Assembly (NCBI GenBank): GCA_017962375.1
Contig: JAGCVJ010000009.1
Coordinates: 62,001-126,000, forward strand
Direction: 5' to 3'
Source: Bacteroidales bacterium
GTDB lineage: Bacteria; Bacteroidota; Bacteroidia; Bacteroidales; UBA932
DNA length: 64,000 nt
Below are positions 9,722 to 64,000 of the stretch, in pieces; position 1 is the first letter of the stretch, and every line of letters begins with the position of its first letter. The notes beneath the pieces were generated by a model. That model saw only the letters and a program-made list of their open reading frames with translations, did no database searches and had not been told where the DNA came from. The position numbers were made by a program, and so were the translations under genes.

Positions 9722-10828
9722 TTACAGGAGTTTCTTCAGTTCTTCAATATCGGGAAGCGCCTTACGAAGATTTGCAGGCATATCTTCAGAGGTCCTGTAT
9801 GTTACAACTCCCATAGGCTTGTTGTAGTCTCTGATTACGAATTCAACAAACTCCCGATCGGCAGATTTGCACATAACAATTCCTATGGACGGGTTTTCAT
9901 TAGTTTTTTTGACTTTTGTATCGAGTATTGAAAGATATGTCATCAGTTGCCCTAAGTAAGAAGACTTGAAAGCCCCTTTCTTAAGATCAATCACCACCAG
10001 GGCCTTGAGTTCTCTATTAAAGAAAAGCAGATCTGGAAAGTTTTCCACTCCATATATTTCCAGGTGATACTGATTCCCCACAAAGGCAAAGTCATTCCCG
10101 AAAGTCATAATGAACTTCTTGATGTTCTGTATAATTCCTTGTTCTACCATTCTTTCATCCACATCCATGCAATCTCTTTCTCCGATTTCCTCAACATTTA
10201 TGAAGTCCAGCAGGTATTCATCCTTGAACATCATTACAGCTTTGCGCGCCATTTCAGAATTTGAAAGTGTAGCAGGAAAATTGTTAGGCATTCTGTCTTT
10301 GTGTTCGTAAGTATGTTGATCTATTTCTTTCTTAAGATATTCTTTTGAAATATGTTCCACTGCTGTTCGATGAATATAATAATACCTTTCTTTTATATCC
10401 TTCGATTTGCGCAGTATTATTGTATGGTGAGTGAACGGTACGTTGAAAAAGTCATCAACGGGGAAATCTTTCGTTTCAGGAATCATCATAGCCTGATGAA
10501 TGTTGATAGCATTCTTAAATTCGTCGGCTACGGCCGACGAATTTGGATCAAGCATTTTCCAGCCTTCATAGAAAAGACGCATCTCCTTCATTTGTGTAGC
10601 CGAAAACCCCTTTAATCCTGGCAACTCTTTCCTTAACTGACTACTGATTGTTTCAAGGGCTCCAGAGCCCCACTTCGCCTGCCTTGTATTCATTGACAGA
10701 TACTTCCCGATAGCAAAATATAGTGCCAGTTGAACTCTATTGACCTTTTTTGCTGCTTCATACTGACCTTGCAGGATGGCTGTCTTTATTGATTCTACAG
10801 CACTCTTCAAGTCATTCTCTTTAGCCAT
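9722..10828 (-). CDS. YhcG-family PD-(D/E)XK nuclease (DUF1016), copy 1
   Basis: The 368-residue protein has the two-part YhcG layout. An N-terminal helical DUF1016_N region (about residues 10-130) includes LALYFAIGKYLS and GFSATQMKEMRLFYEGW. A C-terminal PD-(D/E)XK nuclease domain shows ENFPDLLFFNRELKALVVIDLKKGAF (about 265-290), carrying the catalytic P-D and D-x-K residues. The family is related to archaeal Holliday-junction-type nucleases and often sits with mobile or defence genes; its exact role is not settled. A second, diverged copy lies at 36620. Upstream is copy A of the shared promoter module. Confidence 0.9.
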   Translation of the reverse strand: MAKENDLKSAVESIKTAILQGQYEAAKKVNRVQLALYFAIGKYLSMNTRQAKWGSGALETISSQLRKELPGLKGFSATQMKEMRLFYEGWKMLDPNSSAVADEFKNAINIHQAMMIPETKDFPVDDFFNVPFTHHTIILRKSKDIKERYYYIHRTAVEHISKEYLKKEIDQHTYEHKDRMPNNFPATLSNSEMARKAVMMFKDEYLLDFINVEEIGERDCMDVDERMVEQGIIQNIKKFIMTFGNDFAFVGNQYHLEIYGVENFPDLLFFNRELKALVVIDLKKGAFKSSYLGQLMTYLSILDTKVKKTNENPSIGIVMCKSADREFVEFVIRDYNKPMGVVTYRTSEDMPANLRKALPDIEELKKLL

Positions 10829-10854: not shown

Positions 10855-10932
10855 CAATAGTATACCGTTTTCTCTTAAACCGGATGCCAAACGGTAAATT
10901 GACGCTGTCCGCCCCGAAAGTTTTTACGTTTA
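10855..10932 (-). promoter_or_regulatory. Shared upstream promoter module, copy A (yhcG copy 1)
   Basis: The conserved block is 10881-10932. It matches 26265-26317 at roughly 46 of 53 positions and shares its core with 30502-30551, 36541-36565 and 62357-62406. Read on the minus strand the core AATTTACCG ends at 10892, 64 nt before the ATG. A one-mismatch -7 box, TACTATTG, lies at 10862-10855, 30 nt past the core. Confidence 0.65.
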
Positions 10933-24871: not shown

Positions 24872-25612
24872 ATGAAATTCCTGAAATCTTTTTCCTCCGC
24901 GACTTTAACAGCCGCTTTTGCCGTTATTGCGGCTATTTCTATATCATCCTGCAAATCAGGCAACAACTCCGCCCAAGCCAATCCTGAAAACAATGGCATC
25001 ACCTTCACGGAACACGAGCTTATGATCATAAACCAGTCCGATTCCGTGATGTATCTGACTGTTGTCACCGACAGGGCAGACAGCCTCATCCTGAGAAACA
25101 AGTCCAGAGATTTCACCGCTGAAGAACTGCAAAGCAAAGAGTTCCAGACTCTTGCCAAGAACCTCCTTGCCACCGTACAGGATCCAAGCCAGGATGGAGT
25201 GGGCATCGCCGCCCCTCAGGTTGGCCTCAACCTGAGGATGCTTGCTCTTATGCGCTATGACAAAGAAGACAAGCCTATCGAGCCTTACGCCAATGTCCAC
25301 ATTCTGGAATACAGCAAAACTGAAAAGACCGGTCCTGAGGGCTGCCTCTCCATTCCCAAATATCGCGGAGAAGTAAAAAGGGCAGACTCCATAATTGTCT
25401 CATATTACGACATTAACGCAAAAACTTACCGTACCGACACTATTGCCGGCTACACTGCCATCATCTTCCAGCACGAGACAGACCACCTGGAAGGCATCCT
25501 CTACACAGACCGCGCAGACACTGTCTATTTCAACCAGAAATGGGCAGATGAGCGCAAACTCTACGAGCAGCAAGGCGCCTACACCAAACCAGCCTGGTGG
25601 CCATACAAATAA
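24872..25612 (+). CDS. Exported peptide deformylase-like lipoprotein
   Basis: The 246-residue protein begins with a signal peptide and lipobox (ISISSCKSG, Cys about residue 27). It continues as a peptide deformylase with all three metal-site motifs: GVGIAAPQVG (about 109-118), EGCLSIP (about 149-155) with the metal cysteine, and QHETDHLEG (about 200-208) with both histidines and the catalytic glutamate. PDF normally removes N-formyl groups from nascent proteins in the cytoplasm; a lipid-anchored version outside it must have another substrate. About 70 residues between lipobox and catalytic core match no named domain. A broken paralogue lies at 27041-27423. Confidence 0.85.
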   Translation: MKFLKSFSSATLTAAFAVIAAISISSCKSGNNSAQANPENNGITFTEHELMIINQSDSVMYLTVVTDRADSLILRNKSRDFTAEELQSKEFQTLAKNLLATVQDPSQDGVGIAAPQVGLNLRMLALMRYDKEDKPIEPYANVHILEYSKTEKTGPEGCLSIPKYRGEVKRADSIIVSYYDINAKTYRTDTIAGYTAIIFQHETDHLEGILYTDRADTVYFNQKWADERKLYEQQGAYTKPAWWPYK

Positions 25613-25640: not shown

Positions 25641-26213
25641 TTATTTGTTTTGTTCTGAGGAACTTTTAACTTTGCGGTTAGAAGGTTGGGATACAGTTCC
25701 GTTCGTGGCAGGTGTATTATCTGTTAAGTTCCCCGCCAGCAAAGTATTATGAGCAACAGATTGCTCTTTCTGCACTTCGGAAGCAGACCACACAACCTTC
25801 TTATCTTTTCCGTATCCTTTTCTGAAAATACCACCACTGTTCACTCTCCAGAATCCCTTATCTCCTATCAGTTCAATATATAACGTATTGTTATGTGAAT
25901 CTTGAAGCTGTAATAGATGAGTCCCGTTTCCAATGGTGTATTGCTTGCCTTCTAATATCTTATTGTAATTCCCAGCTACATATTCCACGAAGGCCTCTAT
26001 ACTATTAAATCCTGCCCTAGAAATTTGCCGGCCATGCCTGAGTTCTATGTGAATTCTACCGTATTTTGCGTTACCCAGTTCCAATTTAATAGGTGCCGGC
26101 ACAAGTCCTGTTTCAGGAGTTATGTGACCAAATACTGTTGTTTTATTGCTAGATAGGGTAAACAGTATTCCGTTTTCTTCAACAACAAAGCATTCACTGA
26201 TTTTCTTTTCCAT
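25641..26213 (-). CDS. Barnase/colicin-E5-like (PBECR-type) domain protein, tentative
   Basis: The 190-residue protein has a core (about residues 52-145) with a pattern seen, from memory, in the C-terminal putative nuclease domain of large Bacteroidota phage and mobile-element proteins: RIHIELRHGRQI, then GFNSIEAFVEYVAGNYNKI, then a strand with LYIELI, and FWRVNSGGIFRKGYGKDKKVVW. The last 45 residues are a disordered Ser/Thr/Asn tail. Such domains are predicted RNases in toxin-like proteins. Here it stands alone without a phage or toxin-delivery context. No immunity gene was recognised. Copy B of the shared promoter module lies 51 bases upstream. Confidence 0.45.
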   Translation of the reverse strand: MEKKISECFVVEENGILFTLSSNKTTVFGHITPETGLVPAPIKLELGNAKYGRIHIELRHGRQISRAGFNSIEAFVEYVAGNYNKILEGKQYTIGNGTHLLQLQDSHNNTLYIELIGDKGFWRVNSGGIFRKGYGKDKKVVWSASEVQKEQSVAHNTLLAGNLTDNTPATNGTVSQPSNRKVKSSSEQNK

Positions 26214-26238: not shown

Positions 26239-26317
26239 CAAAGAAAACCCATCTTCCCCAAAAGCGAATGCCAAACGGTAAAATTGACTCTGTCCGCCCC
26301 TAAAGATTTTACTTTTA
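26239..26317 (-). promoter_or_regulatory. Shared upstream promoter module, copy B (barnase-like gene)
   Basis: The conserved block is 26265-26317, the closest relative of copy A. On the minus strand the core TACCG ends at 26276, 63 nt before ATG 26213. A -7-like box TTTCTTTG (one mismatch) lies at 26246-26239. Confidence 0.6.
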
Positions 26318-26424
26318 CGAAATGGAACAACAATCTAATCTGCAATTGTTCCTATTGAAATAATCCAGGATTATCATAAAAAACAGAGCGCCCTAGCCTA
26401 ATAACATCAACAATGATTTTGGTG

Positions 26425-26441: not shown

Positions 26442-27046
26442 ATGAATGGAATCCTGACAGCTCTGCTTATACCTCTAGCCGGAACCGTAATCGGCGCCGC
26501 CTTTGTTTTCTTTCTGAAGAGGGAGATTTCTTCCTGGATGCAGAAACTCATGCTCGGTTTTGCTTCGGGAGTAATGGTTGCGGCTTCTGTCTGGAGCCTG
26601 CTGATTCCTAGCTTGGAACTTGGATCCGCTTCTGCAGGCGTATCGTTATCAGGCGTTTTTCCTGCTGTCATAGGCCTTCTTGCCGGCTTTGCCTTTCTGC
26701 TGCTGATAGACTATATAACTCCGCATCTTCATCCTGACGGCCAGGCCGAGGGTCCTAAAAGCCGGCTTTCTCATACATCCAAGCTCATGCTTGCTGTTAC
26801 TATCCACAACCTTCCGGAAGGCATGGCTGTAGGTGCAGCGCTCATTGCCGCAACAGCTTCAGTATCATCCGCTACGCCGGCATCTTCTGCTTCTGCTGTT
26901 TCTCTAGCTTCAGCCTTTGCAATCAGCATCGGCATTGCAATTCAGAATATCCCGGAAGGAGCCATCATCTCCGTTCCGATGAAGGCTGCCGGCAACTCCA
27001 GAGCCAAGTCTTTCCTGCTCGGCTGCCTGAGCGGCATTGTTGAACC
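26442..27046 (+). pseudogene. ZIP family metal transporter, 3'-truncated and fused to a deformylase fragment
   Basis: About 200 residues align with the intact ZIP protein at 35404: the N-terminal membrane segment, a metal-binding HNLPEGM motif in helix IV, and IQNIPEGAIISVPMKA in helix V, up to GCLSG and VEP. After that the reading frame continues only 9 codons and stops at 27074. The last part of the transporter (about 55 residues) is replaced by the 3' part of a deformylase gene. Loss of the final helices should abolish transport. The break lies in TTGAACCT (27040-27047), shared by both genes. Confidence 0.85.
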
Positions 27047-27423
27047 TCAGGATGATTGCTGTAATGCGCTATGACAAAGACAACAAGCCCATTGAACCTT
27101 ACGCCAACGTCCACATCACATACTTGAGCCAGAACATCAAGTCCGGCCCGGAAGGCTGCCTTTCCGTTCCTAACTACAGAGGCATCGTTCCCCGTTCTGA
27201 CAGCATCATTGTCTCTTACTACGACATCAACTCCAACGCTCAGAAAACCGACACGATAGGGGGCTACACCGCCATCATCTTCCAGCACGAGACAGACCAT
27301 CTGGAAGGCATTCTTTACATAGACCGCGCAGACTCCGTATTCTTCAACCAGGCTTGGGCAGACGAGCGCAAACTCTTCGAGCAGCAAGGGGCCTACACCA
27401 AACCTTCCTGGTGGCCGTATTAG
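27041..27423 (+). pseudogene. Peptide deformylase 3' fragment (paralogue of 24872-25612)
   Basis: From LNLRMIAVMRYDKDNKPIEP onward the protein matches residues 117-246 of the lipoprotein deformylase upstream. It includes EGCLSVP, QHETDHLEG and the shared C-terminal end QQGAYTKPSWWPY. The signal peptide, linker and first active-site motif (GxGxAAxQ) are missing, so it cannot be a working enzyme. It is out of frame with the ZIP fragment it is joined to. Confidence 0.85.
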
Positions 27424-28750: not shown

Positions 28751-29848
28751 ATGAACCCTGTAGTTATTCGTCTTCTCAACCAGCAGCTTGCAGCACCTCA
28801 GTTCACCGATCCGGCTGAGGTTGTACGCCATTTGTGCGCCATTCAGGCACAGGAATACCGCATGATGCGCTGGGCTGTGGCCATGCGCACCAAGAAGCCT
28901 TCCGCCAAGGCATTCAAGGATGCATTTGACAGCGGAAGCATCATCCGCCTTCACCTTATGAGGGGTACCTGGCAGCTGGTGAGCGCACAAGATTACTGGT
29001 GGATGCTGGACCTTTGCGCTCCCAAAGCCATCGCCGTCACTAAAGGCTGGATGGCCAGCAACAAGATCTCCATCCCGGCTAAAGAACAGGCAAAAATCAG
29101 AGATATTCTCTCAAGAACAGCATCTGACAGAGGAAGCGCAACCAAAGAAGATTTCAAACAGGCTCTGAAAGAGAAAGATATAACTATGGATGACCACAGG
29201 CTGTCCTACCACATCCGTATGGCCGAGTTTACCGGCACTCTCTGCAGCGGAGACCTCCTTCCCATGAAGGCCACATACGCTCTGGCATCAAATAAAGTAG
29301 GCCCACACCCTGGCAAAACCGACAGGGACGAGGCTCTTATGAACTTCACCCGCAAGTACTTCCAGAGCCGCCAGCCTGCCACTCTCGAGGACTTTGTCTG
29401 GTGGTCCGGCCTTAATGTCAGCGATTGCAGAAGGGGCATTGAACTCCTTAGCACTTCAATTCATAAAGAGCATATTAATGGCCGTGATTTCTACCTTACC
29501 GAAAACTGCCGCACTCGAGGCTTCCGCCAAGGCAAATATCTTCTGATTCCTCCATACGATGAATATCTGATTGGCTACAAGAGCAGAGACATAGTCCTGC
29601 CCCAGGAACATCGCCACAAGGCCCACAACAACAGCGGCATCTTCCAGCCCGTCATCGCCCACGACGGCATCATCTGTGGCAACTGGGCTCCGTTCAAACA
29701 AGAACTTCAGGCGGAATTCTTCATCCCGTCCACACCCGTAGCCAAGCATAGCAGCTCCACAAAATCCTATCCTGAGCCACTCCAGCACGCCTGGCAGGTT
29801 TACAACCGCTTATTTTCTTGCCCTGGTAATTTCAACCTGAAGTCCTAG
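28751..29848 (+). CDS. Winged-helix DNA-binding protein, AlkZ/YcaQ-like
   Basis: The 365-residue protein is of the HTH_42 family (three tandem winged helices). This family includes AlkZ and YcaQ glycosylases, which unhook interstrand crosslinks or remove bulky bases. The catalytic QxQ motif is present in CAIQAQEYRMMRWA (about residues 32-45). Other family residues are seen in LHLMRGTWQLV (about 68-78) and RLSYHIRMAEFTG. Substrate cannot be inferred. It is 25 bases downstream of the ATPase gene and overlaps the convergent antitoxin gene by 39 bases at its 3' end. Confidence 0.82.
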   Translation: MNPVVIRLLNQQLAAPQFTDPAEVVRHLCAIQAQEYRMMRWAVAMRTKKPSAKAFKDAFDSGSIIRLHLMRGTWQLVSAQDYWWMLDLCAPKAIAVTKGWMASNKISIPAKEQAKIRDILSRTASDRGSATKEDFKQALKEKDITMDDHRLSYHIRMAEFTGTLCSGDLLPMKATYALASNKVGPHPGKTDRDEALMNFTRKYFQSRQPATLEDFVWWSGLNVSDCRRGIELLSTSIHKEHINGRDFYLTENCRTRGFRQGKYLLIPPYDEYLIGYKSRDIVLPQEHRHKAHNNSGIFQPVIAHDGIICGNWAPFKQELQAEFFIPSTPVAKHSSSTKSYPEPLQHAWQVYNRLFSCPGNFNLKS

Positions 29849-30121
29849 TGCATTGATTATGCGGTAGAAAGTTCCGACACTTGGGACCATCACTCCGTTT
29901 TCAATCTTTGAAATGTAGCTTTTGGTGCTTCCTATTCTTGATGCCAATTCATTTTGAGTCACACTCTCTCCTACACGAGCATCCTTAAGAATCTGTCCTG
30001 AATAAAAAGCATAAGCTTCTTCTTCTGCCTTGATTCTCTCTTTACTTCCCGGAGTGCCGAATTCTGTATCTAGAACAATATCGTAATCTCTTATTTTATT
30101 GTCATTTACATGTTCTTTCAT
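29810..30121 (-). CDS. XRE-family antitoxin (HigA-like), toxin partner broken
   Basis: The 103-residue protein has a C-terminal helix-turn-helix (ELASRIGSTKSYISKIENG, about residues 58-76). Its N-terminal half, with a DTEFGTPGS segment, is typical of antitoxins partnered with RelE/HigB-type toxins in Bacteroidota. The upstream toxin reading frame ends 20 bases inside this gene, the usual coupled arrangement, but that toxin is damaged. The antitoxin may still regulate its own promoter or neutralise related toxins elsewhere. Confidence 0.82.
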   Translation of the reverse strand: MKEHVNDNKIRDYDIVLDTEFGTPGSKERIKAEEEAYAFYSGQILKDARVGESVTQNELASRIGSTKSYISKIENGVMVPSVGTFYRIINALGLQVEITRARK

Positions 30122-30284
30122 AGTATGCTTTCTTTATTAGTTTTGCTTTGTCAATCTCATTTTGGGGTGTTTGTTGAGTCTTTTTCTTAAAACCGTTAAA
30201 CAGTACAACAACATTGTCTGAGTCAAAAATGAAGAAAGTCCTGAATATGTTCCCTTCATATTCTGTTCTAAGTTCATAAAAGCC
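30102..30284 (-). pseudogene. RelE/HigB-type toxin, C-terminal fragment
   Basis: On the minus strand, codons after a TGA at 30287-30285 read GFYELRTEYEGNIFRTFFIF, then VVVLFNGFKKKTQQTPQNEI and a Lys-rich tail with YYERTCK before the stop at 30102. This is the second half of a RelE/HigB mRNA interferase. The in-frame stop and lack of any recognisable N-terminal half show it is broken. A different frame stays open from 30442 (Lys/Gln-rich, about 60 residues) but does not look like toxin. Confidence 0.8.
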
Positions 30285-30464
30285 TCAAAGTATCCTCCGT
30301 ATGTCAAGATTCGTCTTGTCGATTGCAAAGGTAATAAAGGTTGCATTATTATGCAACTTGTCGCTGCTTTTTTATTCTGTTTTCTTTGCTGTTTTTTTGT
30401 TTGATTTTTCTTTCCCTTTTTATCGTTCTTCTCCTTCATCATTCTTTCTGATATTTCAATGATT

Positions 30465-30551
30465 CAAAGGAAAAGGATTCCGCAGATAAGCGGTTGCAAG
30501 ACTGTAAAATTTACCCGACAGAGTTAAAAATTTTGTGGTTAACGTTTTTGA
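30465..30551 (-). promoter_or_regulatory. Shared upstream promoter module, copy E (broken toxin-antitoxin locus)
   Basis: The minus-strand segment 30551-30502 includes AACGTTAACCACAAAATTTT and GGGTAAATTTTACAG, weaker but collinear with the other copies. The core ends at 30502, 63 nt before ATG 30439. A -7-like box TTCCTTTG (one mismatch) lies at 30472-30465, the same 30-nt offset as copies A and B. Confidence 0.5.
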
Positions 30552-35403: not shown

Positions 35404-36162
35404 ATGAAAGAGATTCTGACAGCATTGATGATACCACTGGCAGGAACTGTAGTGGGGGCAGGGTTCGTGTTTTGCCTGAAGAAGGAGATTTCTGCCTGGA
35501 TGCAGAAGCTGATGCTTGGGTTTGCGTCGGGAGTGATGGTGGCGGCCTCGGTATGGAGCCTGCTGATTCCGAGCATTACAATCGGAAACGTTTGGCATGC
35601 AACTGTGGGGCTTCTTTGCGGGTTCGGATTTCTGCTGCTGATAGATTACATAACTCCACATATACATTCCTCAGGCGATGCAGAAGGTCCTAGAAGCCGC
35701 CTTTCACGCACTTCAAAGCTGATGCTTGCGGTAACTATCCACAATCTGCCGGAAGGAATGGCAGTGGGGGCTACGCTTGTGGGGGCGATAACTTCAGGGG
35801 CAGAAATATCAATGGCGGCAGCGTTTGCGGTAAGCATAGGTATCGCCATACAGAATATCCCTGAAGGGGCAATCATTTCTGTCCCGATGAAAGCAGAAGG
35901 CAATTCCAGGAGCAAGTCTTTCCTTCTCGGATGCCTGAGCGGGGTGGTAGAGCCGGTAGGGGGAGCGCTTGTAATCGTTCTGGCATCTGTCTTTACTCCT
36001 ATGATGCCTTACTTGCTGGCGTTTGCAGCTGGAGCGATGTTGTATGTGGTTGTGGAAGAACTGATTCCTGAAACATCAAAAGGATTGCATTCTAATTTGG
36101 GGACTGTTGGCTTTGCGGTGGGGTTTGCCCTGATGATGGTGCTGGATGTAGTATTGGGATAA
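35404..36162 (+). CDS. ZIP family divalent metal transporter
   Basis: The 252-residue protein has about eight membrane segments and the two ZIP metal-site motifs: TIHNLPEGMAVG (helix IV, about residues 114-125) and IQNIPEGAIISVP (helix V, about 150-162). A short His/Asp loop (HIHSSGDAEGP, about 83-93) lies between helices III and IV. It probably imports zinc or iron. It closely resembles the truncated copy at 26442, so the two arose by duplication or homologous exchange. This copy is complete. Confidence 0.9.
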   Translation: MKEILTALMIPLAGTVVGAGFVFCLKKEISAWMQKLMLGFASGVMVAASVWSLLIPSITIGNVWHATVGLLCGFGFLLLIDYITPHIHSSGDAEGPRSRLSRTSKLMLAVTIHNLPEGMAVGATLVGAITSGAEISMAAAFAVSIGIAIQNIPEGAIISVPMKAEGNSRSKSFLLGCLSGVVEPVGGALVIVLASVFTPMMPYLLAFAAGAMLYVVVEELIPETSKGLHSNLGTVGFAVGFALMMVLDVVLG

Positions 36163-36396: not shown

Positions 36397-36431
36397 TTAG
36401 AGGAAGCGGGCGGTGCGGGCGGCAAGGCAGG
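36397..36431 (-). pseudogene. Stray copy of the psuG 3' end
   Basis: The minus strand reads LAARTARFL then TAA, almost the same as the last codons of psuG (LAARTARNL, stop at 38573). At DNA level 36397-36431 matches 38573-38607 at about 31 of 35 positions. No further psuG sequence extends upstream of it. The two copies bracket the second yhcG gene and the DUF4919 gene. Confidence 0.7.
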
Positions 36432-36454
36432 AAGGAAAAGGTAAAGCAGGATTT

Positions 36455-36482
36455 GCGGTCGAGGTTGCTCGGCCGCTTTTTG
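36455..36482 (+). terminator. Terminator after the small cysteine protein gene
   Basis: The arms GCGGTCGAG and CTCGGCCGC (one G-T pair) close a GTTG loop, followed by TTTTTG. Confidence 0.75.
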
Positions 36483-36530
36483 TTTGTGGTGGGATGGTTG
36501 CAAAATGTTGTTCATTTCCGTACGATTCTA

Positions 36531-36593
36531 CGATTGTATAAGGTAAAATTTACCGGATGGTTTGGTTGAGGGGGTGGGGTTGGTGTAGATTTG
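36531..36593 (+). promoter_or_regulatory. Shared upstream promoter module, copy D (yhcG copy 2)
   Basis: GGTAAAATTTACCGGATGG (36542-36560) is the 3' half of the module. Then come TTTG (36561-36564), 21 bases, and TAGATTTG (36586-36593), a good -33/-7 promoter. The core ends at 36555, 65 nt before ATG 36620 and 31 nt before the -7 box, exactly as in copy C. Confidence 0.7.
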
Positions 36594-36619
36594 CGAGAGT
36601 GAATCTAAATGTGATTGTG

Positions 36620-37636
36620 ATGGAAGAGAAACAAAACTTGAAAGAGGCGTTTGTCGGGGAAATCAAGGGGATTATTGATGGTGCAAGGGCAAATGCAGTC
36701 AGGAGTGTAAACTTCAGCAGGGTGCAGATGTACTGGAATATCGGGAAGAAGATATTCGAGGAAGAGCAGCATGGGAAGAAGAGAGCGGATTACGGGAGCT
36801 ATTTGATTAGGAAGCTGGCGGAGAGGCTGGAGCCGGAATACGGGAGTGGATTCTCCAAAAGACAATTGGAGAAAAGCAGGCAGTTTTATAAACTGTTTCC
36901 AATTGCGTCCGCATTGCGGACGCAATTAAATTGGACTCAATATAAATTACTTATAGCTATTTCGGATGCTTCTAAAAGAGAGTATTATGAATTGGAGGCT
37001 GTAAATAATGCCTGGACAAGTAGAGAGTTGGAGAGGCAAATAAACTCAATGCTGTATGAAAGACTGCTGCTAAGCAATGACAAAGAGTCTGTTTTAGCTG
37101 TGGCTCGAAAAGAAAGGATTCCGGAAGCGCCTTCTGAGGTTATAAAGGATCCAATGGTGCTTGAATTTCTGGGATTAGAGAAGAAAGCATCATATTACGA
37201 GAAAGATTTGGAGAGTGCCATTATCTCACATCTGGCGGAGTTTCTTCTGGAAATGGGGAAGGGCTTTTCATTTGTGGCCAGGCAGAAAAGGATAATGCTG
37301 GAGGATGATGAGTTCTTTGTGGATCTCGTGCTTTATAACAGGCTTCTGCGTTGCTTTGTTGTAATAGAAATCAAGACTGAGAAACTTACTCATCAGGACT
37401 TGGGGCAGTTGCAGATGTATGTAAATTATTATGACAGATGCGAGAAACTGCAGGAGGAGGGGCCTACATTGGGAATCTTGCTATGCGTAGACAAGAATGA
37501 TACAGTAGTCAGGATGAGTCTTCCAGAAGACAATCAGAGCATTGTGGCAAGCAGATATAAGCTGTGTATGCCTAGTGAACAGCAGCTTGTTAAAGAGGTG
37601 GAGGATGTGAAGAAAAAGATTGATGGTAATTGCTAA
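36620..37636 (+). CDS. YhcG-family PD-(D/E)XK nuclease (DUF1016), copy 2
   Basis: Starting at ATG 36620 gives 338 residues; the earlier in-frame start at 36557 lies upstream of the -7 box. The N-terminal DUF1016_N region includes RVQMYWNIGKKIFEEEQHG and GFSKRQLEKSRQFYKLF. The C-terminal nuclease domain has DDEFFVDLVLYNRLLRCFVV then IEIKTEKLTHQDLGQLQMYV (about residues 232-275) with catalytic Asp and E-x-K. It is only distantly similar to copy 1, so the two are not recent duplicates. Both carry the shared promoter module. The gap 37637-37847 has a further TAGATTTG box (37720-37727) but no convincing gene. Confidence 0.9.
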   Translation: MEEKQNLKEAFVGEIKGIIDGARANAVRSVNFSRVQMYWNIGKKIFEEEQHGKKRADYGSYLIRKLAERLEPEYGSGFSKRQLEKSRQFYKLFPIASALRTQLNWTQYKLLIAISDASKREYYELEAVNNAWTSRELERQINSMLYERLLLSNDKESVLAVARKERIPEAPSEVIKDPMVLEFLGLEKKASYYEKDLESAIISHLAEFLLEMGKGFSFVARQKRIMLEDDEFFVDLVLYNRLLRCFVVIEIKTEKLTHQDLGQLQMYVNYYDRCEKLQEEGPTLGILLCVDKNDTVVRMSLPEDNQSIVASRYKLCMPSEQQLVKEVEDVKKKIDGNC

Positions 37637-62356: not shown

Positions 62357-62435
62357 TAAACGTAAAAACTTTTCATAAGGCCGGGTAAATTGTACCGGAT
62401 GGTTTGGAGAGGCCCTTCCTCTGCTGATATTTTTG
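62357..62435 (+). promoter_or_regulatory. Shared upstream promoter module, copy C (DUF3575 gene)
   Basis: TAAACGTAAAAACTTTTC begins at 62357 and GGGTAAATTGTACCGGATGG at 62383, then TTTG (62403-62406), 21 bases, and TATTTTTG (62428-62435). The core ends at 62397, 63 nt before ATG 62460 and 31 nt before the -7 box. The first part matches the minus strand of copy A almost exactly. Confidence 0.7.
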
Positions 62436-62459: not shown

Positions 62460-63032
62460 ATGAAGCAGTTTAAAAGGAAGGGCTTGTTCTTTTGTGCTGT
62501 GGCGGCGCTGGCAGTGCTGCCTTGCATGAAGAGTTATGCCCAGAATTATTCGGTTTCCACGAATGCGGCCCAGTGGCTGATGCTGGGGACCGCCAACGCC
62601 CAGGCAGGATATCCTGCTGCAAGGCATATCAGTATAGAGGGCGGATTCGCCTATAATCCATTTTCTTTCGGCAAGAAGCCAGACAGGAAATACTTCCGCA
62701 GGACAGAGTTCTACGCGGGAGGGAGATACTGGCCCTGGTTTGTCAATTCAGGCTGGTTTGTGTCGGCATACGCAGACTGGGCCAAGTTCGCATACGCGGG
62801 AATCTTTACTAAAAAGGCATACGAAGGCTATGCCTACGGCCTGAAGGTGGGGGGCGGGTATGCCCTGATGCTTGACAAGGGAATCAATCTGGAGATGGGC
62901 CTGGGAGCCTTTGCCGGTAAGGTTAACTATACGGAATACTCCTGCGCCACCTGCGGGAAGAATCTGGGCAAGAAGGACAAGTTCATTATAGCCCCGGCCA
63001 ATCTTCTTCTGGGCTTAACCATTGTATTCTAG
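62460..63032 (+). CDS. DUF3575 outer-membrane beta-barrel-like protein
   Basis: The 190-residue protein has a signal peptide (residues 1-27, cleaved after SYAQ). It then shows alternating strands rich in Gly, Tyr, Trp and Phe, as in small outer-membrane barrels: STNAAQWLMLGTANAQAGY, RTEFYAGGRYWPWFV, YGLKVGGGYALMLDKGINLE and a terminal strand ending in VF. It matches the Bacteroidota DUF3575 family, often near fimbrial or lipoprotein genes. It is 5 bases before a lipoprotein gene and is driven by module C. Confidence 0.82.
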   Translation: MKQFKRKGLFFCAVAALAVLPCMKSYAQNYSVSTNAAQWLMLGTANAQAGYPAARHISIEGGFAYNPFSFGKKPDRKYFRRTEFYAGGRYWPWFVNSGWFVSAYADWAKFAYAGIFTKKAYEGYAYGLKVGGGYALMLDKGINLEMGLGAFAGKVNYTEYSCATCGKNLGKKDKFIIAPANLLLGLTIVF

Positions 63033-63037
63033 GCGGT

Positions 63038-64000
63038 ATGAAGAAGATGGCTATAGTATTGGGGCTTGTGGCCGCTCTTGTGGCAGGATGCAAGGCATTT
63101 TATGTCAGGCACAAGTCACCAGAAAGTGTAAGAGTAAGCATATCCGATAACTTTTCCGGGCAGGGAACGGATCCGGTTTATGTCCTGCCGAAATCTGAGA
63201 GGACATACAAAGACACGGCTTTTGCCAATCCGGGTGAGGACCTGGTACTCAATGCGGTGGTGGAAGACGCTACGGGAGAGCTGGTTGCGCACGGAAAGAT
63301 TGCTCCGATAACAGTTACTGCAACCCATAAGAATATCGCCGAGAGAGGAGGAAAAATCAAGTTGAGCTTTGATGTGAGAGTTCCTTCTTCCATACTTTCC
63401 AACGACAGGCAGGTTAGGGTGGTGCCTCATCTCTTGCTGGACGATGGTTCAAAGATGCTGGACAGGATATTCATTACAGGAAAGTCTTATCGCGATCAGC
63501 AGAACAAAGGATATGAAAGGTACAACAAGTATTTTGCTTCAATCATACCGGATTCAGTGGATTTCCTCAAGGCCTTCGGCTATCTGGGCCTGTTGCAGTA
63601 CTTTACAGAGAGGAATATAGAAGACCGCCCCAGAGGAGAGTTCGGGGTAACGGAACCTGAAGCAATTGACTATTACATAAAGCATTATCTGGTAAAAGCA
63701 AACCGCCGCCGGAAGGACAGGCTTGAGGAGGTGTTCAGAAAATGTGTGAAGGATCCCGTGGACAGGCTTGGTGTAAGGTTGGACACAGTGTTGGAAGATC
63801 CTTCCGGAGGTCTGGTTTACAGATATGTGCAGGATCTGCAGCCGAGTGGGGGAATGCATCGTCTCAGGCTGGTTTTCGACGGCAGCGTGCACAATTACGG
63901 CAAGAGGCTTTTCGGGTTTTCCAGCCCCGATACCCTGACTTATTACGTCAGCTCGCTGGTGCAGCTGGCAGACACTTCGGCCAGGTATCGCGAACATACT
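63038..64000 (+). CDS. Lipoprotein of unknown function, 3' end outside window
   Basis: The frame is open from ATG 63038 to the window end, 321 residues so far. It starts with a short signal and lipobox (LVAALVAGCKAFY, Cys about residue 18). The first 120 residues are beta-rich (PVYVLPKSERTYKDTAF and LVLNAVVEDATGELVAHGKI). A helical region with conserved Tyr/Lys/Asp follows (YIKHYLVKANRRRKDRLEE), and then RLRLVFDGSVHNYGKR. No named family was recognised with certainty. It is 5 bases after the DUF3575 gene, so the pair probably acts together at the outer membrane. Confidence 0.7.
   Translation, partial: MKKMAIVLGLVAALVAGCKAFYVRHKSPESVRVSISDNFSGQGTDPVYVLPKSERTYKDTAFANPGEDLVLNAVVEDATGELVAHGKIAPITVTATHKNIAERGGKIKLSFDVRVPSSILSNDRQVRVVPHLLLDDGSKMLDRIFITGKSYRDQQNKGYERYNKYFASIIPDSVDFLKAFGYLGLLQYFTERNIEDRPRGEFGVTEPEAIDYYIKHYLVKANRRRKDRLEEVFRKCVKDPVDRLGVRLDTVLEDPSGGLVYRYVQDLQPSGGMHRLRLVFDGSVHNYGKRLFGFSSPDTLTYYVSSLVQLADTSARYREHT

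Follow-up and report, generated by a model that had tools for sequence, protein, structure and literature searches.

Five copies of what looks like one promoter module had been described by a first-pass annotation of this locus, each at a fixed distance from genes unrelated to one another, and the question is what such a module controls. The window analysed here is a stretch of 64,000 nucleotides, bases 62001-126000 of contig C1, from a 2.17-Mb genome that is 87% complete. Both the genes it holds and its type of promoter suggest that the source belongs to the Bacteroidales. Blocks A, B and E (minus strand) and D and C (plus strand) were all found at the coordinates and on the strands proposed there (Table 1). 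Our own reading of the distance between the end of the core and the ATG also agreed with the original values: 65 nt in D, 64 nt in A and 63 nt in B, C and E, where for E the second of two neighbouring ATGs was taken as the end point. The same is true of the -7 box, which resembles TAnnTTTG and is complete in C and D while carrying one mismatch in the other three.

Table 1. Features of the five blocks and their surroundings (window positions unless a locus is named; M3 is the matrix described in the text)
Feature	Position	Strand	Details
Block A	10855-10903	-	core GTCAATTTACCG at 10892-10903, then TTTGGCATCCG; M3 score 19.6
Block A, -7-like box	10855-10862	-	TACTATTG, one mismatch
Block A, upstream part	reaching 10932	-	GGGGCGGACA and TAAACGTAAAAACTTT
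yhcG-type nuclease gene downstream of A	9722-10828	-	YhcG_C and DUF1016_N; PADLOC candidate defence family PDC-S02
Block B	26239-26289	-	core AGTCAATTTTACCG at 26276-26289, then TTTGGCATTCG; M3 score 59.0
Block B, -7-like box	26239-26246	-	TTTCTTTG, one mismatch
Gene B, downstream of B	25641-26213	-	190 aa, without significant family
Block E	30465-30515	-	core GGTAAATTTTACAG at 30502-30515, then CTTGCAACCG; M3 score 21.8
Block E, -7-like box	30465-30472	-	TTCCTTTG, one mismatch
Broken Gp49/RelE-type toxin ORF downstream of E	30137-30442	-	
HTH gene after the broken ORF of E	29810-30121		
Block D	36542-36593	+	core GGTAAAATTTACCG at 36542-36555, then GATGGTTTGG; M3 score 46.3
Block D, full -7 box	36586-36593	+	TAGATTTG; upstream GTACGATTCTACGATTGTA
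yhcG-type nuclease gene downstream of D	36620-37636	+	ATG 65 nt past the core
Block C	62384-62435	+	core GGTAAATTGTACCG at 62384-62397, then GATGGTTTGG; M3 score 39.7
Block C, full -7 box	62428-62435	+	TATTTTTG; AT-rich half starting at about 62357
DUF3575 gene downstream of C	62460-63032	+	opens a type V pilus operon
Second pilus-operon gene	63038-64000	+	608 aa, C-terminal TPR; extends beyond the window end
110-bp direct repeats	L358 8713-8822 and 10101-10210; L359 9162-9271 and 10126-10234		look like cassette borders

Each block in the window consists of a GTMAATTKTAC-like core, followed within a few bases by a TGG element, and the TAnnTTTG-like box about 30 nt downstream (29-30 nt between core and box in all five, by our own reading of the sequence). 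The notion of one shared core had to be revised, as there are two sub-types instead, GTMAATTKTACCGTTTGGCAWCCG in A and B, with E as a divergent form, and GTMAATTKTACCGGATGGTTTGG in C and D. The core of block A lacks one base. The AT-rich half reported as common to A, B and C is an optional part of the module; ACGTAAAAACTTT (at most 2 mismatches) was present in 27 of the 167 sites described below. In Bacteroidetes promoters the -7 consensus is TAnnTTTG and the -33 element, TTTG, usually lies 19-21 nt away. A distance of 25 nt, as between TTTG and -7 box in A and B, exceeds this, so the core has the appearance of an activator site rather than a -33 box. An alternative sigma factor, which had been offered as one explanation, is unlikely because the standard TAnnTTTG-like box is retained, not replaced. 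The possibility of an RNA element was dropped, as the only Rfam match in the window was a tRNA and the module precedes the inferred transcription start.

Three matrices were used to determine how far these blocks stand out. Matrix M (32 sites including those of the source genome; L002 was dropped for a gap) gave the five blocks scores of 25.3-61.5, compared to 0.6 for the next position in the window and 9.3 for the best in 60 dinucleotide shuffles. Matrix M2 (24 rows with no site from the source genome, including the relative of block E from genome G029) singled out A, B and E (26.8-57.1) but not C (-4.5) or D (-7.7), because its set held no copy of their sub-type. Matrix M3, built from 138 sites of both sub-types in ten other genomes with strong matches, recovered exactly the five blocks with scores of 19.6-59.0, the next best being -10.8. 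The relative of the block E toxin ORF in G029 (locus L029) is intact and belongs to Pfam Gp49.

For scanning genomes, a sequence-only profile was made from alignment A1, which held 33 of the 34 prepared references (block A was left out); four loci considered to be chance matches (L020, L024, L025 and L037) were not used either. Pattern GGTAAATTTTACNNTTTGGCAWCCG with at most 3 mismatches matched in 14 of the 39 genomes of the genus, and its reversed control pattern matched in none of the same 39. With the profile at E 0.1, 11 of these genomes had 10-22 matches with best E values of at most 2.8e-11 (the strong genomes hereafter), 17 had 1-8 weaker matches and 11 had none. The strong genomes together gave 190 matches, including 21 (E ≤0.1) in the source genome. 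They are 80-96% complete, and the absence of a single gene from one of them could be a gap. In several of the weaker genomes the best matches lie before dprA, the comEA-like gene, DUF3575 or the lipoprotein gene, and in others (e.g. L144-L146 and L152-L154) they do not precede core genes. Among 199 genomes of the family, 12 were matched at E ≤0.001, 11 of them within the genus, and the match in the sole genome outside it was weak. The recurrence of the site within the genus is therefore established, and since it is nearly confined to the genus in this sample and 19 of 20 comEA-like loci outside the strong set (other genera and weaker genomes of the same genus) scored at most 2.1, the site is not a phylum-wide rule. 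The remaining locus, in G024, gave a weak 12.8. While the matrix scan covered all 20 loci, the upstream region was read directly at 10 of the 19, one of them with 27 bases only.

The sites are also tied to gene starts. Among the matches listed, 167 in the analysed stretches of the 11 strong genomes had a matrix score above 12 and make up the site set used from here on; 157 score at least 20, and the set includes some weak sites as well as three shadows, scoring 18-23, on the reverse strand of the comF promoter. An ATG-initiated ORF of at least 60 aa starts 50-95 nt from the core start at 114 of the 167 sites, compared to 3651 (18%) of 20,000 positions drawn at random from the same loci, which bears out the claim that the module keeps a set distance before start codons. 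On account of this positioning, a dispersed REP or MITE repeat was rejected. A DNA-uptake sequence was likewise rejected, as there are about 20 copies and not hundreds. With 10-22 matches per strong genome, the module is too scarce to be merely the general promoter. Could the core be an extended promoter element, used by ordinary RNA polymerase with no regulator and giving matched constitutive expression? The normal -7 box, kept at a nearly fixed distance from the core, fits this idea. However, such low numbers per strong genome (about 2 Mb), together with the tie to functionally related genes across species, do not, and several columns of the core and the TGG element in M3 are near 2 bits, which exceeds our own expectation for a -33 element. 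We consider this explanation improbable.

What the sites have in common becomes apparent from the genes behind them, assigned by BLAST to reference proteins. A recurrent set accounts for 79 of the 167 sites and accessory genes for 69, with no gene assigned to the other 19. The first proposal, an accessory regulon under a shared regulator, was thus partly right: a shared regulon is supported by the few sites per genome, their recurrence across species and their set distance before start codons, whereas a purely accessory one is contradicted by the 79 sites before a recurrent set that includes DNA-uptake genes. A site precedes the gene for a ComEA-like HhH DNA-binding protein and that for a surface lipoprotein in all 11 strong genomes, the DUF3575 type V pilus operon and a C39-peptidase ABC exporter in 10, dprA and a gene of the Exo_endo_phos_3 nuclease family in 9, and comM and comF in 7 each. 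In the source genome, thyA- and folA-like genes (the names are our own reading) come after the nuclease gene. Weak sites were also present before the gene of a 51-aa membrane peptide in 5 of the 11 genomes; peptides of this type (51-63 aa, ENRKQIIWL...) were seen at L257, L269, L275, L283 and L297, with site scores of 13.4-21.0.

Family identities were tested on one or two representatives each. DprA and YifB/ComM exceeded the NCBIfam cut-offs, and comF stayed below its own (73.4 vs 233.55 bits). HHH_3 (ComEA-like) was exactly at the Pfam cut-off, while the ComEA-like copy of G027 matched no Pfam or NCBIfam family. DUF6359, SDH_protease and ORF6N were above their cut-offs and DUF4493 was below (24.3 vs 27). 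Representatives of RhuM, KilA-N, Gp49, SLFN_AlbA_2 and Exo_endo_phos_3 also found family support.

The sharing of one operator by dprA (9), the comEA-like gene (11), comM (7) and comF (7) among 11 genomes supports the reading that the module acts as operator and promoter for a regulon controlling natural competence, and we consider this probable. Several observations weaken the reading: comM and comF carry a site in only 7 of the 11 genomes, with comF below its cut-off; and comEC, although present in all 11, has no site within about 1.5 kb at any of the 11 loci (best matrix score -13.4). As comEC is present throughout yet lacks a site, it may be expressed separately from the regulon. Its loci (L241-L251) read as a short frame of 357-373 aa in 10 of the 11 genomes and of 479 aa in G030. 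The same lack of a site at comEC would suit a regulon for DNA damage or phage stress, in which a stress-responsive activator or repressor would induce defence-like genes, and dprA, comM and the nuclease would serve repair instead of uptake; so would the 69 sites before accessory genes, many of which belong to PADLOC candidate-defence families (PDC-S02, PDC-S05 and PDC-S22). However, by our own reading no classic repair gene (recA, uvr, umu or lexA) stands behind a site in the table of 167, in which 19 sites have no assigned gene, and the ComEA-like protein (11 of 11), lipoprotein, pilus and exporter are envelope functions that better fit uptake and signalling. A stress regulon is therefore unlikely in our estimate. 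As for a regulator of the competence regulon, a LytTR response regulator was found in only 3 of the 11 strong genomes, ruling it out as the general one.

Downstream of block C, the order is DUF3575, the 608-aa gene, a FimA-like subunit and an Mfa2-like anchor, the latter two lying beyond the window (L177). The gene first described as a DUF3575 barrel thus opens a type V pilus operon. Families of such pili, among them FimA, Mfa2 and DUF3575, exceeded the Pfam cut-off (PF12099, 106.6; PF06321, 36.0; PF22492, 34.8; and PF08842, 23.3 bits). The order from DUF3575 through the 608-aa gene to the FimA-like gene is kept in all 10 loci that bear the site, and Mfa2 was reached in three of the nine loci from other strong genomes, with none in the stretch examined at the rest. 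An operon with DUF3575, a FimA-like subunit and an Mfa2-like anchor is a feature shared with the type V (FimA/Mfa1) pili of Bacteroidia, which are known as adhesion fimbriae; the difference is that the present operon has the same type of promoter as genes for DNA uptake. No secretin family was found in any of the 11 strong genomes, nor was a type II/IV secretion ATPase above the family cut-off (7 genomes gave short weak matches), and assembly gaps in all 11 genomes at 80-96% completeness are a possible but not likely cause. Because these markers of type IV pili and type II secretion were not found, the type V pilus becomes a candidate for the organelle of DNA uptake.

Transformation in related bacteria offers a comparison. 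The gene sets of Riemerella anatipestifer and Porphyromonas gingivalis likewise include DprA, ComF, HhH/ComEA and surface proteins, and the outer-membrane step of P. gingivalis is likewise unexplained in the portions of the sources available to us, which, unlike the present case, describe no operator or regulon for these genes. According to the accessible part of one report, the naturally competent P. gingivalis needs ComEA and ComEC for transformation, how its DNA import to the periplasm occurs is unclear and no type II or IV secretion system has been identified in it (PMC11532111). Transformation of Riemerella, as far as the available text of another report goes, needs ComEC, DprA, ComF, RecA and an HhH protein, and also a predicted fimbrial protein with DUF5689/DUF5017 and an outer-membrane protein (PMC8459023). 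The parallel between this set and the regulon described here is our own. Our literature search, which left most subscription papers outside its coverage, found no competence operator or regulon described for Bacteroidota.

Downstream of the site, ten loci have a C39-peptidase ABC transporter gene (Peptidase_C39 PF03412, 90.2 bits, plus ABC domains in the representative tested) and then short peptides with double-glycine leaders. A small membrane ORF (45-59 aa) lies between site and transporter in 9 of the 10, and our script did not detect it in the tenth. The first peptide is present in all 10 loci and the second in 9, one locus ending too early; their cores are conserved. TolC- and HlyD/MacA-like genes come after the exporter in the source genome. 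The peptides matched no Pfam family and no meaningful NCBIfam family, and they could be a signal or a bacteriocin. These peptides, at L240 (5329-5869) and nine related loci, are candidate pheromones or bacteriocins. In streptococci, the ComABCDE/com-box system combines competence genes with a C39-peptidase ABC exporter and double-glycine peptides. The combination found here is similar, with the differences that the exporter shares its operator with dprA, that LytTR occurs in so few of the genomes and that TolC- and HlyD-type partners follow.

The 69 accessory sites precede 25 toxin-antitoxin-like genes, 15 YhcG-like genes (some broken), 8 RhuM/ORF6N/KilA-N genes, 7 transposase-like genes and others. 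By PADLOC, YhcG is PDC-S02, RhuM/ORF6N PDC-S05 and KilA-N PDC-S22. HicA, HigB, Gp49 (three), AbiEi_3, Y1_Tnp and YhcG were above the Pfam cut-off, whereas the HicB-like (L199) and Phd-like (L195) labels are our own reading and had no Pfam support. For gene B, a family search gave no significant hit (nearest Pfam E 0.042). Transposase-like genes with a site were noted at L003, L017, L023, L265, L261, L268 and L281; L261 is Pfam Y1_Tnp, and L003 gave a weak REP-transposase match. The first REP-transposase representative stayed below its NCBIfam cut-off (29.9 vs 80 bits). Judging from their position, these genes would be under the same control.

Enrichment of YhcG, which the first-pass annotation had proposed as a test, was borne out: 14 of the 19 YhcG_C gene copies in the 11 genomes have a site, one of them being broken. 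In contrast, 80 named YhcG loci from other taxa, of which 79 extend 250 bases or more upstream of the match, had no site; matrix M scored 996,414 positions there, of which a single one reached 12.3 and none reached 15, and the best score with the final matrix was 3.2. The YhcG gene thus does not appear to bring the promoter from afar, and the difference between 14 of 19 and 0 of 80 indicates that, as judged from sequence, the promoter is native to the clade while its cargo comes and goes. The third YhcG gene of the source genome (L334; G000 C4:55345-55806) has the upstream flank ACGATTGTA with no scorable core, possibly a lost site.

Exchange of the cargo is established at three places where the promoter was kept while the gene behind it changed. 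The promoter of block D (36418-36631) is 90% identical to its counterpart in G029, where ORF6N takes the place of YhcG; to the right, from 37830 onward, identity is 87% along 8.2 kb, and the left flanks differ. At block B, identity to G009 is 91% in the left flank (25002-25612) and 85% in the promoter (26239-26398), and G009 has a RelE/Gp49-type gene instead of gene B. In the third pair, RelE in G003 corresponds to YhcG in G029, both flanks are shared, and 110-bp direct repeats, 93-97% alike, lie on either side of promoter and cargo. These repeats could be taken to mean that promoters spread chiefly as mobile cassettes together with their genes, the match to competence genes arising because a strong promoter was copied rather than from shared control. 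In L184 and L307, unrelated genes next to each other have almost identical promoters, and REP-transposase-like genes carry sites; both point the same way. However, the repeats were seen at one locus, and a search around A, B, D and E gave no general flanking repeat; diverged copies of the site stand at the native loci of dprA in 9 genomes and of the comEA-like gene in all 11; the best documented pairs show a promoter that stayed and a gene that changed; and the 80 YhcG loci of other taxa had no site. Spread as cassettes is thus very improbable as the main explanation, and the transfer of promoters suggested at the outset survives in another form, mostly as gene exchange behind a fixed promoter, plus the near-identical neighbours.

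The nearest parallel to a competence regulon with such cargo is the CRP-S/Sxy (TfoX) regulon of Haemophilus influenzae, to which dprA and comM belong and in which a dispersed operator likewise joins DNA-uptake genes and an acquired toxin-antitoxin operon, toxTA. Its operator sequence is different, and the regulon described here stands apart by the variety and the exchange of its cargo and by including a type V pilus operon and a peptide exporter. In the part of the toxTA report available to us, its authors place toxTA under competence control and do not know how it came to be so (PMC6957337).

Taken as a control region for competence, the module would work as follows. We infer an activator, probably dimeric, that would bind the imperfect palindrome GTMAATTKTAC together with the TGG element next to it, at a site whose centre lies some 50 nt before the transcription start; the activator would replace the missing -33 element and recruit housekeeping RNA polymerase, the TAnnTTTG box being kept. 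Expression would be inducible, and the genes activated together would be: dprA, comM, comF and those for the ComEA-like HhH protein and the nuclease family, with the thyA- and folA-like genes behind the latter in the source genome; the surface lipoprotein gene and the type V pilus operon; and the C39-peptidase ABC exporter with its two double-glycine peptides, whose exported product may be a signal or bacteriocin-like. Single toxin-antitoxin, YhcG, RhuM/ORF6N/KilA-N and transposase-like genes would have been captured under the same control, with the gene behind a given promoter being exchangeable.

A bolder version, which we hold to be rather doubtful, is that DNA would enter through the type V pilus and the co-regulated DUF6359 lipoprotein instead of a type IV pilus, that competence would be set by the C39-exported peptide, and that the same switch would arm rotating toxin and defence genes at fixed promoter slots, guarding the cell against what it imports. 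Because one promoter type links DNA-uptake genes to the pilus operon, lipoprotein and exporter, it provides a short, testable list of genes for DNA import. If true, the exchange of defence-like genes behind competence-type promoters would offer a new view on how DNA import is paired with protection.

Finally, paralogous pairs lie beside blocks B and D. A ZIP-like gene (26442-27034) has a related copy at 35404-35942 (69%), and part of a second gene is repeated at 25229-25605 and 27043-27419 (77%). These pairs are perhaps traces of recombination at these slots.
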